The position numbers and the translations under genes are program-made. A stretch of DNA of 51,130 nucleotides from NCBI RefSeq assembly GCF_027000115.1, contig NZ_JALTON010000049.1, positions 1 through 51,130 on the forward strand. The letters run 5' to 3'. Origin of the DNA: Thiohalobacter sp. GTDB taxonomy: Bacteria > Pseudomonadota > Gammaproteobacteria > Thiohalobacterales > Thiohalobacteraceae. The notes below the pieces were generated by a model that was given only the letters and a program-made list of their open reading frames with translations, was not told the origin of the DNA and ran no database searches. Of this stretch, positions 1-9,247 are shown piece after piece. Numbering within the stretch: the stretch's first letter is position 1; every line of letters begins with the position of its first letter.

Positions 1-127
1 CGATTACATCGAGATGTTCTACAACCGCCGTCGCAAGCACGGCTACAATGACATGCTCTCGCCGGTGGAGTACGAGAAAAGATATTTTATGAAGCTCGAG
101 AGTGTCTAGAGAACCCGGGGCGATTCA
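1..127 (+). mobile_element. Right end of an IS3-family insertion sequence (left part outside window)
   Basis: The first 127 bases are the tail of an IS3-family element. They hold the end of the transposase gene (2-109) and then a candidate terminal inverted repeat at 105-127. Read on the other strand, that repeat starts TGAATCGCCCCGGG, which is typical of IS3-group ends (TGA..CGCCCCGGG). The element stops at about base 127, directly beside the integron-type cassettes, so it probably inserted into or beside the cassette array. The exact boundary is inferred because the left end and any target duplication are outside the window. Confidence 0.75.
2..109 (+). CDS. IS3-family transposase OrfB, C-terminal fragment
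   Basis: The reading frame is open from the window edge and ends at TAG 107-109, giving 35 residues. It contains the characteristic end of the IS3/IS150 integrase-core transposase: YIEMFYNRRRKH, then a few residues, then LSPVEYE. In this family (rve domain, DDE recombinase) the segment lies just after the catalytic glutamate. The catalytic residues themselves are to the left of the window, so it cannot be said whether the element is active. The window edge, not a mutation, cuts this gene. Confidence 0.85.
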   Translation, partial: DYIEMFYNRRRKHGYNDMLSPVEYEKRYFMKLESV

Positions 128-183
128 CTCTTAAGTTGGAAGCAGAGTTAATTTCTGCATTCGGAATACGAAAGTACGGGGGC

Positions 184-489
184 ATGCTTACAAATAAAGT
201 CCGACCTAACCCGAATAACATCAGCCGTAGAATAAAAGTAAATGTGCCAGAAGGATGTTATGAAAAGGCGCAGATGGGTCTAGAACTCGTTAAATCTGCT
301 GTCATGGAGCTGGCAAAAGCCAATCCAGACGGCATAAAAAATTCCGATACAGCGAAATATTTGGGTCTGCAATCTGATTATGGTGGTGGGTCAAAGGATT
401 ACTTGAGCTACAGTATCCTCGGAATTTTAATGAAGGAAGGCAAAATTAAACGTAATGAGAAGAAAAAGCATGTGGCAGTATCAGAGTGA
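184..489 (+). CDS. Hypothetical cassette protein, probably a winged-helix-like domain
   Basis: This gene encodes about 102 residues from ATG 184. The frame stays open further left (TTG 136 would give 117 residues) and even runs into the IS end, so it may be the C-terminal remnant of a longer protein cut by the IS. It is basic at both ends. The middle (residues about 35-90) has the pattern of a helix-turn-helix or winged-helix: NSDTAKYLGL, then a linker, then YLSYSILGILMKEGKI. I recall similar tails on restriction-endonuclease-like proteins, but this is memory, not a search. Its base composition is clearly lower in GC than the chromosomal genes to the right. It is followed within 3 bases by an attC site, so it is a mobile gene cassette. 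No function is assigned. Confidence 0.6.
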   Translation: MLTNKVRPNPNNISRRIKVNVPEGCYEKAQMGLELVKSAVMELAKANPDGIKNSDTAKYLGLQSDYGGGSKDYLSYSILGILMKEGKIKRNEKKKHVAVSE

Positions 490-491
490 GC

Positions 492-556
492 GCATAACAA
501 TGCACTTGAGCGGGGCGCCGCATAAAACGCGGCGCCCCTCAGCTTAATTGTTATCG
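492..556 (+). other. Integron attC recombination site (cassette 1)
   Basis: The site has the architecture of an attC: GCATAAC at 492-498 and GTTATCG at 550-556 at the outer edges, with ATAACAAT and ATTGTTAT as perfectly complementary arms. Inside is a long GC-rich stem (GGGGCGCCGC facing GCGGCGCCCC) around a short AT-rich loop. Folded as single strand it makes the imperfect hairpin that IntI integrases recognise. The stop codon of the preceding gene lies just before it, as in a normal cassette. The predicted crossover is between G550 and T551. No integrase gene is visible in this window. Confidence 0.8.
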
Positions 557-611
557 GCCAGAGGTGAGTGCGGTGTAAGATGGCAATACGGGCAAATTTG
601 GAGAGATCGAT

Positions 612-851
612 ATGGCGAGAAAAGTTGAGGAGATAGAACGTGAAATACGCGCACTGAGTGATGACGAGCGAAATCATTTGCTAAGGGACTTGGTGGCGGA
701 TCTTGATGGGAATCCTGACCCCGAGGTAGAAAGAGCTTGGCTGGAAGAGGCTCGGCGCAGGCTTCGAGAGCTTCAGCAGGGAGATGTTGAAGCGCTGTCC
801 GCTGAAGAAGTATTTAGAAGCGCGAGGGATCGCCTAAAAGATGGAAGTTGA
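612..851 (+). CDS. Addiction-module antitoxin (TIGR02574/Unstab_antitox-like)
   Basis: This acidic 79-residue protein starts MARKVEEIEREI and contains LSDDERNHLLRDLVADLD followed by PEVERAWLEEARRRL. That is the pattern of the short unstable antitoxin family often called putative addiction module component. It would bind and neutralise the toxin encoded by the next gene and, as a complex, probably repress its own promoter. A purine-rich ribosome-binding site (GAGAGA) precedes ATG 612. The toxin gene overlaps the last 11 bases, which couples their translation. The gene sits inside an integron cassette. Assignment to the family is firm from the motif; the regulatory role is inferred from the family. 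Confidence 0.85.
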   Translation: MARKVEEIEREIRALSDDERNHLLRDLVADLDGNPDPEVERAWLEEARRRLRELQQGDVEALSAEEVFRSARDRLKDGS

Positions 852-1137
852 GTTTCATCCCGAAGCAGCCGCTGAATTCACGGCAGCATCTGCTTACTAT
901 GAAGAGGAAGTCCCCGGCCTGGGGGGTGCATTTATCACCGAGTTAGAAAGGGTGGCGGAATTGATAAAGCAACACCCCTTCCTTGGAAGTCCAATAGACG
1001 AAATATTTCGTAGGGTGGTGTTGGTGCGTTTCCCATTTTCTGCCATCTACTGCCTTGAAGAAGAGACGTTATTGATAGTTGCTGTCGCCCACCAGCGGCG
1101 CAAGCCAGGATACTGGCGCGACAGAGTTGGCCGATAA
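841..1137 (+). CDS. ParE/RelE-superfamily toxin
   Basis: This 98-residue protein has the ParE/RelE fold signature: an N-terminal strand (VEFHPEAAAEF), two helices with AYYEEEVPGLGGAFITELER, then FPFSAIYCLEEETLLIVAVAHQRRKPGYW. The final AVAHQRRKPGYW block is typical of ParE-type members. ParE toxins act on DNA gyrase and RelE toxins cut mRNA at the ribosome; the sequence favours the ParE side but does not prove the target. It overlaps the antitoxin by 11 bases and its stop codon (TAA 1135-1137) lies inside the attC site. This is the classical compact toxin cassette of a chromosomal integron. Confidence 0.88.
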   Translation: MEVEFHPEAAAEFTAASAYYEEEVPGLGGAFITELERVAELIKQHPFLGSPIDEIFRRVVLVRFPFSAIYCLEEETLLIVAVAHQRRKPGYWRDRVGR

Positions 1138-1189
1138 CAAACGCTTCCAGCCGACGCAAACAACGCGCGGCTGAAGCGGAACGTTAGCT
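1132..1189 (+). other. Integron attC recombination site (cassette 2)
   Basis: The outer boxes are CGATAAC at 1132-1138 and GTTAGCT at 1183-1189. Between them lie the inner arms CGCTTCCAGCCG and CGGCTGAAGCG, which pair with a bulged base, a hallmark of attC asymmetry, around a short CA-rich loop. The left box is the exact complement of the right box of the first attC (GTTATCG), as expected for adjacent cassettes. Crossover is predicted between G1183 and T1184. After this site the sequence becomes ordinary chromosome. Confidence 0.82.
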
Positions 1190-1219: not shown

Positions 1220-2092
1220 CTATTTCGACTCGCCATCAATAAACCCCACCCCCGCCCCAATCACCTCCGCATCGCGCAGAATCCGCCGATGCCCCAGCCC
1301 TTCGGTAATCATCAGTTCCGCGCGCGCCCAGTGGGCGGCCAGTGCCTCGGCGTCGGTGAGGGGTGCGTCGCGGTCGTCCCGGTCGTGGATGATGAGTGCC
1401 GGGCAGGCCCGGTCGCCGAGCATGCGGGCGACCTGGAGACGTTCGCGGAAGTCTTCGCCGAAGCGTTGGGCGATGCGGCGGGTCATGTCGGCCATCACGG
1501 CGGGCGGGATGGCCAACATGGCCTGGAAGCGTTCGAGCAGCAGGTCGGGGCCGGCGGGCGGGGCGACCAGGACGCAGCGTTGCAGCGCCAGCCCCTCGCC
1601 CAGCGCCTGGGCGGTGATCAGGGCGCCGAAGGAGTGGGCGATCAGGCCATGCAGGGGGCCTTCGCGGTCGGCCAGCGCACGCAGGGCGCGGGCACACTGG
1701 TAGAGGTCGGTGGCATTACCCGCTGAGCGGCCGTGGCCGGGCGCGTCGAGGCCGACCACGCGGAAGCCGCGCGCCAGTAGGGGGTCGATGAAAGCGCCGA
1801 GCTGGGTGGCGCGGCCGTTCCAGCCGTGCACCAGGGCGATGGTCGGGGCCTGTTCCGGACCCCACTGGTAGGCCGCGAGTTCCAGCCCGTCCACTTCGAG
1901 GATGCCTTCGCGGGCGCGTTCGCGAATGCGCGTCTCGCGCGGTGGTTCGGGGAAGCGGTGGGTGCGGAACCAGAGTTCGCTGGCGAGCCGGCCGAAGGGG
2001 CGGGGGGCGACCGGTCCCAGCCAGCGAAAGGCCAGCCGCAGCAGGCGCAGGCGTGCGGGCTGGCGGGGGCTGCTGCGATGTCGTTTGTTCAT
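1220..2092 (-). CDS. Alpha/beta-hydrolase family protein
   Basis: This protein of 290 residues has the alpha/beta-hydrolase fold. After a basic N-terminal region it shows the oxyanion-loop motif LVHGWNG (88-94), the DAPGHGRS turn, and the nucleophile elbow HSFGA with Ser154. An acidic cluster HDRDDRDAP (236-244) and GLGHRR with His268 complete a plausible Ser-Asp-His triad. The nucleophile motif is A-H-S-F-G rather than strict G-x-S-x-G, which many esterase-like members share. Substrate cannot be told. ATG 2092 is preferred because it removes a low-complexity leader; ATG 2164 in the same frame would add 24 residues. It is convergent with the integron cassettes and stands alone. Confidence 0.8.
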   Translation of the reverse strand: MNKRHRSSPRQPARLRLLRLAFRWLGPVAPRPFGRLASELWFRTHRFPEPPRETRIRERAREGILEVDGLELAAYQWGPEQAPTIALVHGWNGRATQLGAFIDPLLARGFRVVGLDAPGHGRSAGNATDLYQCARALRALADREGPLHGLIAHSFGALITAQALGEGLALQRCVLVAPPAGPDLLLERFQAMLAIPPAVMADMTRRIAQRFGEDFRERLQVARMLGDRACPALIIHDRDDRDAPLTDAEALAAHWARAELMITEGLGHRRILRDAEVIGAGVGFIDGESK

Positions 2093-2528: not shown

Positions 2529-2570
2529 GCCGTCGCGGGCGTGCCCGTCACGTATGGCGGCGTCAATCCG

Positions 2571-2706
2571 ATGGGCACGTCGCTGCGCTCCTTTGCCCAT
2601 CCTACGTTCTGCGGGTCTTTGCCACCGCCAGTCAGGTAGGATGGGCAAAGGCCCGAAGGGCCGGGCCCATCACAGCGGTGGTGTGAACCTGATGGGCACG
2701 TCGCTA
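2571..2706. repeat. Inverted cluster of the TAGGATGGGCAAAG dispersed repeat
   Basis: Copies lie in opposite directions: one on the minus strand at 2571-2606 and one on the plus strand at 2636-2672. A truncated end at 2691-2706 runs into the stop codon of the MATE gene. Each copy has a GTAGGATGGGCAAAG start, a short self-complementary centre and a GTGCCCATC end, so each can fold alone and the pair can fold together. Two more clusters occur at 5004-5092 and 14234-14387. All lie directly after gene ends, which suggests REP-like elements with roles in transcript ends, or passive spread. Confidence 0.8.
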
Positions 2707-6189: not shown

Positions 6190-7599
6190 TCAGGCCGCCA
6201 GCTGGCGTGCCATGGCGTCCAGTGCCTCGGCGGATTCCAGCACCCGGGTGCAGATCTCGCGCGCGGTTTCCAGATCCAGCCCCAGGGCGTTGAGCACCAG
6301 CGGCGGGGGTTCGCTGTCGGCGCCGTCGCCGATGCCCTCGGCGCGCAGCAGGTGGTCCACCAGCAGTACCAGGTTGGCGTACATGGCGTGTTCGCCGGCG
6401 TAGGTCTCGTTGTGGTGCTCGGTGACGCTGGTGATCACCGGTTCGGGCATCTCCCAGGCGCTCATCAGCCAGCCGCCCATCTCGGTGTGTTCCACCCCCA
6501 TCACCCGCTTCTCGATCAGCGGGACCGGGATCTGCGGATTCGCCGCCACCACCCGGTTGAGCAGGAAGAACTCGGAGCGGAACAGGTGCCCGGCGAGCAG
6601 GAAGCCGAAGTTGTGCAGCAGTCCGGCCAGATAGGCCATGCCGGGGTTGATCGCCAGCCGCGCGCGCAGTGCCGTGGCCAGCGCCTGTGCCAGCGCCGCA
6701 CTGTAAGTGGCATGGCGCCAGAAGGCCTGCAGCCCCAGCGGGCCGTCGGCGGGGTTGCGGAAGGTGCGGCTGGCGGCCAGTCCCAGGCACATGCTGAGTG
6801 CGTTGTCGAAGCCGAGCACCCGGCCGATGGCCTGATCCAGGGTGTCGATCCGGCCCTGGTAGTTGAAAAAGGCCGAGCGGGCATAGCGGATGACCTGGGC
6901 GGTGAGGCTGGGATCGACGGCGACGATGTCGGCCAGGTCGTGAATGGTGGCATGGGGATCGTTGCGTACCCGCAGCAGGCGCCGCGCCATCTCGGGCATG
7001 GCGGGCAGGCGCTCGATGGCCTCGATCTCGTGGCGGATGTCGCTGGCGGGGCGCAGGGCGAGAATGGGGTGGCTGCGCTCGAGATTGCCGGGCAGCACGA
7101 AGTCGCGCGGGTCGCGGCTCTCCAGCACCGACAGCGGCCGGGACAGGTCCAGCCGCCGGCTGTCCTCGTGCAGCCGCTCGAAGTCCTGCCGTGACAGGCA
7201 CACCAGGGCGCGGTGGTGGCCGGGCTCGAAACAGATGTCGCCCTCGCCGAAGAGCTGGTTGTCCACCACCGTGGGCAGTCCCCAGGGTTCGCCGATGGCG
7301 GGCACGGAACGGGGCTCGCAGTCGTGGAAGGTCGCCGCCACCACGGGGTGGGGCGCCGGGCGCAGGTCGCGGCCCAGGGCCTGTTTCAGGGCCTGGAAGT
7401 CCAGCAGGTGATGCGCCGGCAGCACCGCGAGCAGCAGGCCGCGATCGTCCTCCAGCAGCACGGCGCGGGCGAGGTTGTGCGGGTCCAGATTGCTGGCGCT
7501 GGCCGCCTCTTCGAGGGTGTCCGTGGGTTCGTGCAGGCGCAGCTCGTAGCGCACCTTGCGCTGGTCGAGATGTTTCTGCAGACGATTGGCGAGCTGCAT
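6190..7599 (-). CDS. YbaK-like deacylase domain fused to an HDOD domain
   Basis: This 469-residue protein joins two domains. Residues 1-155 match the YbaK/ProX aminoacyl-tRNA deacylase family and are clearly paralogous to the separate YbaK protein encoded at 48726-49196 (shared VLLED, DCEP, GEPWG/GAPWG). Residues about 185-400 form an HDOD domain (LPAMPEMARRLLRVRNDP, VAVDPSLTAQVIRYA, AYLAGLLHNFGFLLAG). HDOD domains are HD-like but non-catalytic, and here the HD position reads H-N. The YbaK half has Arg45 where the separate paralogue has Lys45 at the position of the conserved lysine, so deacylase activity is doubtful. The protein is more likely a signalling or sensing protein. A 14-bp spaced stop and no close partner suggest a single-gene unit. 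Confidence 0.85.
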   Translation of the reverse strand: MQLANRLQKHLDQRKVRYELRLHEPTDTLEEAASASNLDPHNLARAVLLEDDRGLLLAVLPAHHLLDFQALKQALGRDLRPAPHPVVAATFHDCEPRSVPAIGEPWGLPTVVDNQLFGEGDICFEPGHHRALVCLSRQDFERLHEDSRRLDLSRPLSVLESRDPRDFVLPGNLERSHPILALRPASDIRHEIEAIERLPAMPEMARRLLRVRNDPHATIHDLADIVAVDPSLTAQVIRYARSAFFNYQGRIDTLDQAIGRVLGFDNALSMCLGLAASRTFRNPADGPLGLQAFWRHATYSAALAQALATALRARLAINPGMAYLAGLLHNFGFLLAGHLFRSEFFLLNRVVAANPQIPVPLIEKRVMGVEHTEMGGWLMSAWEMPEPVITSVTEHHNETYAGEHAMYANLVLLVDHLLRAEGIGDGADSEPPPLVLNALGLDLETAREICTRVLESAEALDAMARQLAA

Positions 7600-8911: not shown

Positions 8912-9247
8912 ATGACCGATCATCCCCGAATCATCGAACGCCTGCTGGCGCTGGCCGAGCGCCTCTATGCCGATACCGAGGGCTTTCTCGACCAGCCCGG
9001 GCAGCAGCAACTCTGGTACGACCGCGGTTACGCCAATGGCATGATCCAGGCCCTGCGCGAGGCCGGTGCCGGCGAGCGGGTGGCGGCGCGGCTGACGCCC
9101 GATGCACAGGATGTCGCGGCCGACTGGGCAGCGCTGGCCTGGGGCCAGGCCTATGCCCATGGCCATGCCATGGGTCTGCGCGAGGCGCGCGAGGTGCTGG
9201 GCCTGCCGGTCGGCGCTGCCAACGACGCCGGGGCGAACGGTGGCTGA
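8912..9247 (+). CDS. Conserved hypothetical protein upstream of DUF502
   Basis: This acidic, mostly helical protein of 111 residues begins [18 protein letters not shown]. It has [17 protein letters not shown] near the middle and [22 protein letters not shown] near the end. The two tyrosine/glycine blocks (YDRGYANGM and [11 protein letters not shown]) look like an internal repeat that could pack as helical hairpins. The stop codon overlaps the GTG start of the DUF502 gene, so the two are translationally coupled and then followed closely by zapE. No enzyme motif is visible and I do not recognise the family. Confidence 0.7.

Follow-up and report, generated by a model that had tools for sequence, protein, structure and literature searches.

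Clusters of attC sites without an integron integrase are termed CALINs (Cury et al., IntegronFinder, PMC9024848). Their origin has been attributed to off-target insertion, to loss of intI and to rearrangement (PMC8618304), and mobilisation in trans by an IntI encoded elsewhere has also been proposed (PMC12444791). IntegronFinder does not search for attI outside class 1 (PMC9024848), and attI sequences at the heads of such arrays would therefore normally be missed. Three described systems are close to the one treated here. In Xanthomonas, CALINs are found at recurring loci (PMC12444791). In a Shewanella prophage, an attI-led CALIN lies beside a complete integron (PMC9892861). The sedentary chromosomal integron of Vibrio cholerae contains toxin–antitoxin cassettes, and IS3 copies recombine within its array (PMC11023631).

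The locus described here is at the left end of a 51,130-bp stretch of Thiohalobacter sp. DNA, termed the window (contig C49). Like a CALIN, it has cassette genes with two attC sites but no intI next to them; unlike a typical CALIN, it has sister arrays in the same genome that start at attI copies with a promoter-like motif. The plan resembles that of Xanthomonas, with intI at one locus and CALINs at other fixed loci of the same genome, but attI sequences at CALIN heads are not reported in the passages of that work considered here (PMC12444791). The Shewanella prophage has one intI and a second attI-led array without intI, as is also found here. It has, however, a single extra array and is a prophage, whereas the Thiohalobacter loci are chromosomal, include three intI-less attI copies, and follow a plan that recurs in complete genomes from several genera of one family. 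Toxin–antitoxin cassettes are present within the array in V. cholerae as well, but there one large array extends from one attI, in contrast to the several short scattered arrays of Thiohalobacter. As the Shewanella prophage is the one precedent found in a partial coverage of the literature, the arrangement is judged, with moderate confidence, to be a variant of a known one.

The cassette array of the window

Bases 128–1189 of the window make up the distal end of an array of integron cassettes. The features at this locus are as follows.

1..127, + strand: 3′ end of an IS3-family element, with the last 35 transposase codons (stop at 107–109) and the right inverted repeat ending CCCGGGGCGATTCA
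128..489, + strand: cassette gene cut short, with the 3′ part of a LEM-3-like GIY-YIG protein remaining (homologue in genome G248)
490..557, + strand: attC1, matched by model R3; R″ box TAAC 495–498, R′ box GTTA 550–553, crossover 550/551
551..1183, + strand: complete gene cassette of 633 bp, crossover to crossover (13-bp inverted repeat; homology in contig L125 and genome G004)
612..851, + strand: antitoxin of the Unstab_antitox family (PF09720, E 2.7e-12)
841..1137, + strand: ParE-type toxin (PF05016, E 1.7e-8)
1130..1189, + strand: attC2, the parDE cassette's own site and the array end, matched by model R3; R″ box TAAC 1135–1138, R′ box GTTA 1183–1186, crossover 1183/1184
1220..2083, − strand: alpha/beta hydrolase (PF12697), the first chromosomal gene past the array

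Both attC sites are real. Covariance model R3 was trained on 18 attCs (alignment A7), from which the two window sites and their homologues were left out because circularity was to be avoided. With rough E-values, it matches attC2 at 1132–1189 (49.4 bits, E 2.6e-9) and attC1 at 492–556 (29.1 bits, E 1.6e-4), and nothing else in the whole window up to E = 10. An Rfam search gave no result. The R″ box at 495–498 pairs with the R′ box at 550–553, and 1135–1138 pairs with 1183–1186; folding as single-stranded DNA, compared with shuffles, gives z values of −4.0 for attC1 and −3.0 for attC2. The consensus structure of ten attCs from the Thiohalobacter genome, both window sites included, has R-box and L-box helices and an unpaired base. 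In this alignment seven of the eight L-box pairs show changes on both sides, and the covariation score of the L-box helix is 0.52 vs 0.14 in shuffles. The sites thus display the R and L boxes, the asymmetric stem and the bulge of a cassette attC.

The unit between the two crossovers has a start that is complementary to its own R″ arm, in the form of a perfect 13-bp inverted repeat (548–560/1128–1140) that was equalled by one in 2000 random pairs of window stretches. Such complementarity is expected, since the closing of a cassette into a circle requires it. Antitoxin and toxin both pass their Pfam cut-offs (PF09720; PF05016, ParE), and the antitoxin falls below the cut-off of TIGR02574. The two genes have the layout of a type II system of the ParE/RelE superfamily: both domains are present, the antitoxin comes first, and the toxin gene overlaps it by 11 bases and has its stop codon inside the R″ box of attC2. 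A plasmid search for the toxin returned distant ParE proteins only. Bases 551–1183 are a mobile cassette encoding a predicted Unstab_antitox/ParE toxin–antitoxin module. A toxin–antitoxin cassette at an array end is fairly ordinary by itself; by analogy with other integrons, loss of the array tail is probably selected against because of this pair.

The same cassette is found in two other genomes. In a Chromatiales MAG (contig L125, JALVOC010000190.1) it is 87% identical over 376 bp, starting exactly at base 550; identity is 84% over 550–700 vs 32% over 500–549. Its context there consists of an IS at the crossover and a BrnT/CopG toxin–antitoxin pair upstream. The copy in G004, a genome of another genus of the same family, has 69% nucleotide identity (62% in ParE), with a DUF4160/DUF2442 cassette on one side and a Schlafen-type helicase gene on the other. 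The parDE unit thus occurs elsewhere with matching boundaries and other neighbours, and has therefore moved as a cassette; as far as sequence comparison goes, the toxin–antitoxin unit is a true mobile cassette with mobility between genomes. The IS on L125 (1550–3306) has terminal repeats GAGGCTGTCGAAAAACC/GGTTTTTTCGACAGGCTC, is located exactly at the attC crossover and is bordered by GTT on either side; it may be an attC-targeting IS. By inspection, a fragment of a group II intron-type reverse transcriptase (L125:130–900) lies just upstream of the BrnT cassette.

On its left, the array is cut by the IS. The alignment of the truncated gene with its G248 homologue (192 aa, PF22945), at 75% identity, begins at residue 73, right where the IS ends, and the portion with the GIY-YIG motif has been removed by the IS. 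The same IS3 end is found at the ends of contigs C24 and C42, with sequences that diverge after base 127, and the opposite IS end opens or closes C1, C5 and C52. The IS inverted repeat is present at six contig-end places, consistent with three collapsed copies of one IS3-family element, and the left edge of the window is a contig edge inside this multi-copy IS. No sigma-70 promoter was found within 100–1300. On the right, orthologues of the hydrolase occur in G007 and G010, again with the HDOD and crp-type genes upstream of them. A dispersed REP-like palindromic repeat, GATGGGCACGCTTCGCTTTGCCCATCCTAC, is present intergenically at window positions 2565–2700 and at L006:8270–8360 and 9040–9230.

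These results agree with much of the original prediction. It had placed two attC sites at an array end, and they are the sole R3 matches in the window; an attC-specific covariance model, the check it named, recovers both without having been trained on them. The antitoxin/toxin pair was said to fit between the two crossovers, as 612–851 and 841–1137 do, and the array to stop at ordinary chromosome, which begins beyond 1190 with the hydrolase. Related genomes could have shown the same gene order with degraded attC sites throughout; instead, the parDE cassette has different neighbours in G004 and L125.

Integrase and attI-like platforms in the Thiohalobacter genome

One integron integrase is encoded in the whole genome, on contig C58 (34276–35214; TIGR02249, 472 bits vs a cut-off of 265), and it is intact. 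It has its own three-cassette array, with chromosome on both sides within one contig. At the window locus no intI adjoins an attI and array; the two attC sites stand without intI nearby, as in a CALIN, on a contig that ends on the left side. The expectation that a chromosomal integron lies to the left of the window array therefore stands in part: the genome does have such an integron with an intact integrase, but it is on C58 and not simply to the left. Similarly, the sequence left of base 490 does hold a further, truncated cassette, but left of base 128 come the IS3-family end and the contig edge, without intI. A direct join of the window array to the C58 integron was considered and rejected, as the C58 array ends in chromosome within one contig.

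Four attI-like platforms were found, on C58, C24, C1 and C40, each pointing into cassettes. The attI core of ∼60 bp is 87–89% identical across loci, and the flanking DNA has diverged. Each attI has an upstream hairpin or repeat, GATAGACGG...GCCGYCTATCA, and all four platforms display the promoter-like motif TTG(N3)-17-TAG(N2)T, with 17-bp spacing each time, although these motifs deviate from consensus. The C24 attI is behind rpoH, that of C40 behind an amidohydrolase gene, and that of C1 beside dnaE2 and a gene for a haem-type protein, the flanking genes being named from reading of the translations, not from family searches.

C24, C1 and C40 are proposed as orphan platforms, i.e. attI homologues with right-oriented cassettes and no intI. 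On C24 and C40, cassettes with attCs follow the attI in the right orientation. On C1, a cassette-like open reading frame starts at the crossover, but the IS truncates it ahead of any attC. A whole-genome search found attCs confined to attI-led arrays and two array tails, on C52 and C49. Cassette domains include AbiTii and glyoxalase, and BrnT-like and SnoaL-like open reading frames were recognised by inspection. The AbiTii domain (PF18864, E 1e-45) is in the first cassette behind the C24 attI (L016:4383–5297); the domain is linked by name to abortive infection. In the C52 array, an IS3-type remnant interrupts the last attC (L092:1400–1880). Beside the orphan attI of C40, the sequence ATGAGACGGAAACCC (L102:4930–4957) resembles the intI start ATGGGACGGAAACCC. 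Perhaps it is an intI remnant; it is too short for significance in a protein search.

The window array most likely belongs to the orphan attI on C1. One pairing of contigs alone co-orients all arrays, namely C24–IS–C52, C1–IS–C49 (the window) and C5–IS–C42. The C1–C49 link follows by elimination, from orientation and from the IS ends, three of which are left ends and three right ends. Joining of contigs by IS target-site duplications failed, with no match in any pairing, which we take as a sign that recombination took place, or DNA was deleted, between IS copies. Recombination between IS3-type copies would have joined two truncated cassettes, with loss of the ones between them. The surroundings of the hydrolase gene are conserved in G007 and G010, which were compared for synteny between C1 and C49, and the C1 genes are absent there.

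Orphan attI copies and intI decay in relatives

Genomes G001, G004 and G006 have one intI each, plus dispersed attCs. The assemblies of G001 and G004 consist of one contig each and that of G006 of two; assembly gaps are therefore not the explanation. The attI model R1 gave two weak but sensible matches in relatives, in G065 and G093, where attI-like starts precede attCs of the same type. It found none in G001, G004 or G006 because the attI sequence is lineage-specific, and attI copies were instead located by comparison within each genome. Copies without intI were found in G004 at 639 kb (80% over 217 bp), in G006 at 2,083 and 2,088 kb, and twice in G001, where identity is 98% over 373 bp for the copy at 12.8 kb and 72% over 95 bp for that at 1,448 kb. 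All are orphan platforms as in Thiohalobacter: each leads attCs in matching orientation, with no intI there.

Similarity between orphan and intI-linked attIs in G001 and G006 is mostly short (45–95 bp, 72–80%), and the orphans of these two genomes have a common upstream module that is missing from the intI-linked copy. In G001, the attI end and first cassette at L149:15400–15773 are 98% identical to L151:8507–8879, i.e. the same cassette heads both the orphan and the intI-linked array, and recent capture or recent copying must therefore have taken place. The G004 orphan attI (L147:5297–7409) adjoins an HDOD gene whose orthologue, at window positions 6190–7599, is ∼5 kb from the window array, with the array orientation opposite to that in G004.

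At the head of the G004 parDE array, intI survives as a stub of 105 aa (PF13495), adjoined by a formate dehydrogenase/nitrate reductase-like gene. The orthologue of this gene adjoins the intact intI of the Thiohalobacter genome G000. The stub and the orthologous neighbour therefore mark an old shared integron locus, so the integrase was kept in one genus and lost in the other, where the array with its toxin–antitoxin cassette stayed.

Origin of the scattered arrays

The first question is what the window array itself represents. Hairpins are frequent in high-GC DNA, which as a matter of general knowledge, with no tool result behind it, might suggest a parDE operon flanked by two chance hairpins and no integron at all. 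This reading is as good as refuted: the held-out model matches, the covariation and the complementary cassette ends contradict it, and the homology boundary shared with L125 falls exactly at the crossover. That the array is the tail of a longer integron of the ordinary kind, with an intI and attI of its own left of base 1 that were lost to assembly, is very unlikely. The contig edge inside a multi-copy IS would allow it, as would the presence of intI in 41 of 95 relatives. However, the draft genome scored 100% complete, and its sole integron integrase is enclosed on C58; of the contig ends with an attI, that of C1 alone is correctly oriented where it meets the IS, and C1 lacks intI. Insertion of cassettes off-target at a genomic attG-type site, giving a CALIN without any attI, is improbable to a lesser degree. 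Non-classical attG sites can serve IntI as insertion points for cassettes (Loot et al. 2024, as cited in PMC12444791), off-target insertion is among the proposed CALIN origins (PMC8618304), and no attI was seen on the window contig. Against this, the left neighbour is a cassette cut by the IS, so that the array was once longer, and attI homologues of 60–217 bp, more than attG sites have in common, stand at the head of other arrays without intI, both in Thiohalobacter and in relatives.

The favoured reading, which we hold to be probable, is that of a distributed integron that arose by multiplication or decay of platforms and is possibly served in trans, with the window array probably that of C1. 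An ancestral platform would have multiplied, or several integrons would have decayed to platforms. A single IntI that reaches DNA throughout the cell may then capture and shuffle cassettes at all platforms, where the promoter-like motifs would drive them. The platforms could also be dead relics, duplicated or independent integrons minus intI, without present recombination at the orphan sites. This is rather unlikely, but it has points in its favour in the intI stub at the head of the G004 parDE array, in the short resemblance to intI start codons retained on C40 and in the truncation of cassettes by IS elements. It accords less well with attI cores that are conserved at 87–89% across orphan loci while their flanks diverged, or with the G001 orphan attI that carries the first cassette of the intI-linked array at 98% identity. 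In addition, the attC type shared across loci fits a common integrase.

CALINs are roughly as frequent as complete integrons, and how they arise is a matter of debate. An attI with a promoter-like motif at the head of intI-less arrays, in complete one-integrase genomes, points to multiplication of platforms with loss of intI; the question of CALIN origin becomes directly testable, as standard software skips attI outside class 1. The interesting part is the combination of one integrase with several attI platforms scattered across the genomes of a family. We suggest tentatively, as something a little short of an even chance, that one integrase feeds several attI-plus-promoter platforms in trans, with capture and expression at many loci; the platforms would be non-autonomous, may multiply or persist, and may be the origin of many CALINs in the family. 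If this is true, one integrase would provide a cell with several first positions, independent of each other, for the expression of cassettes.
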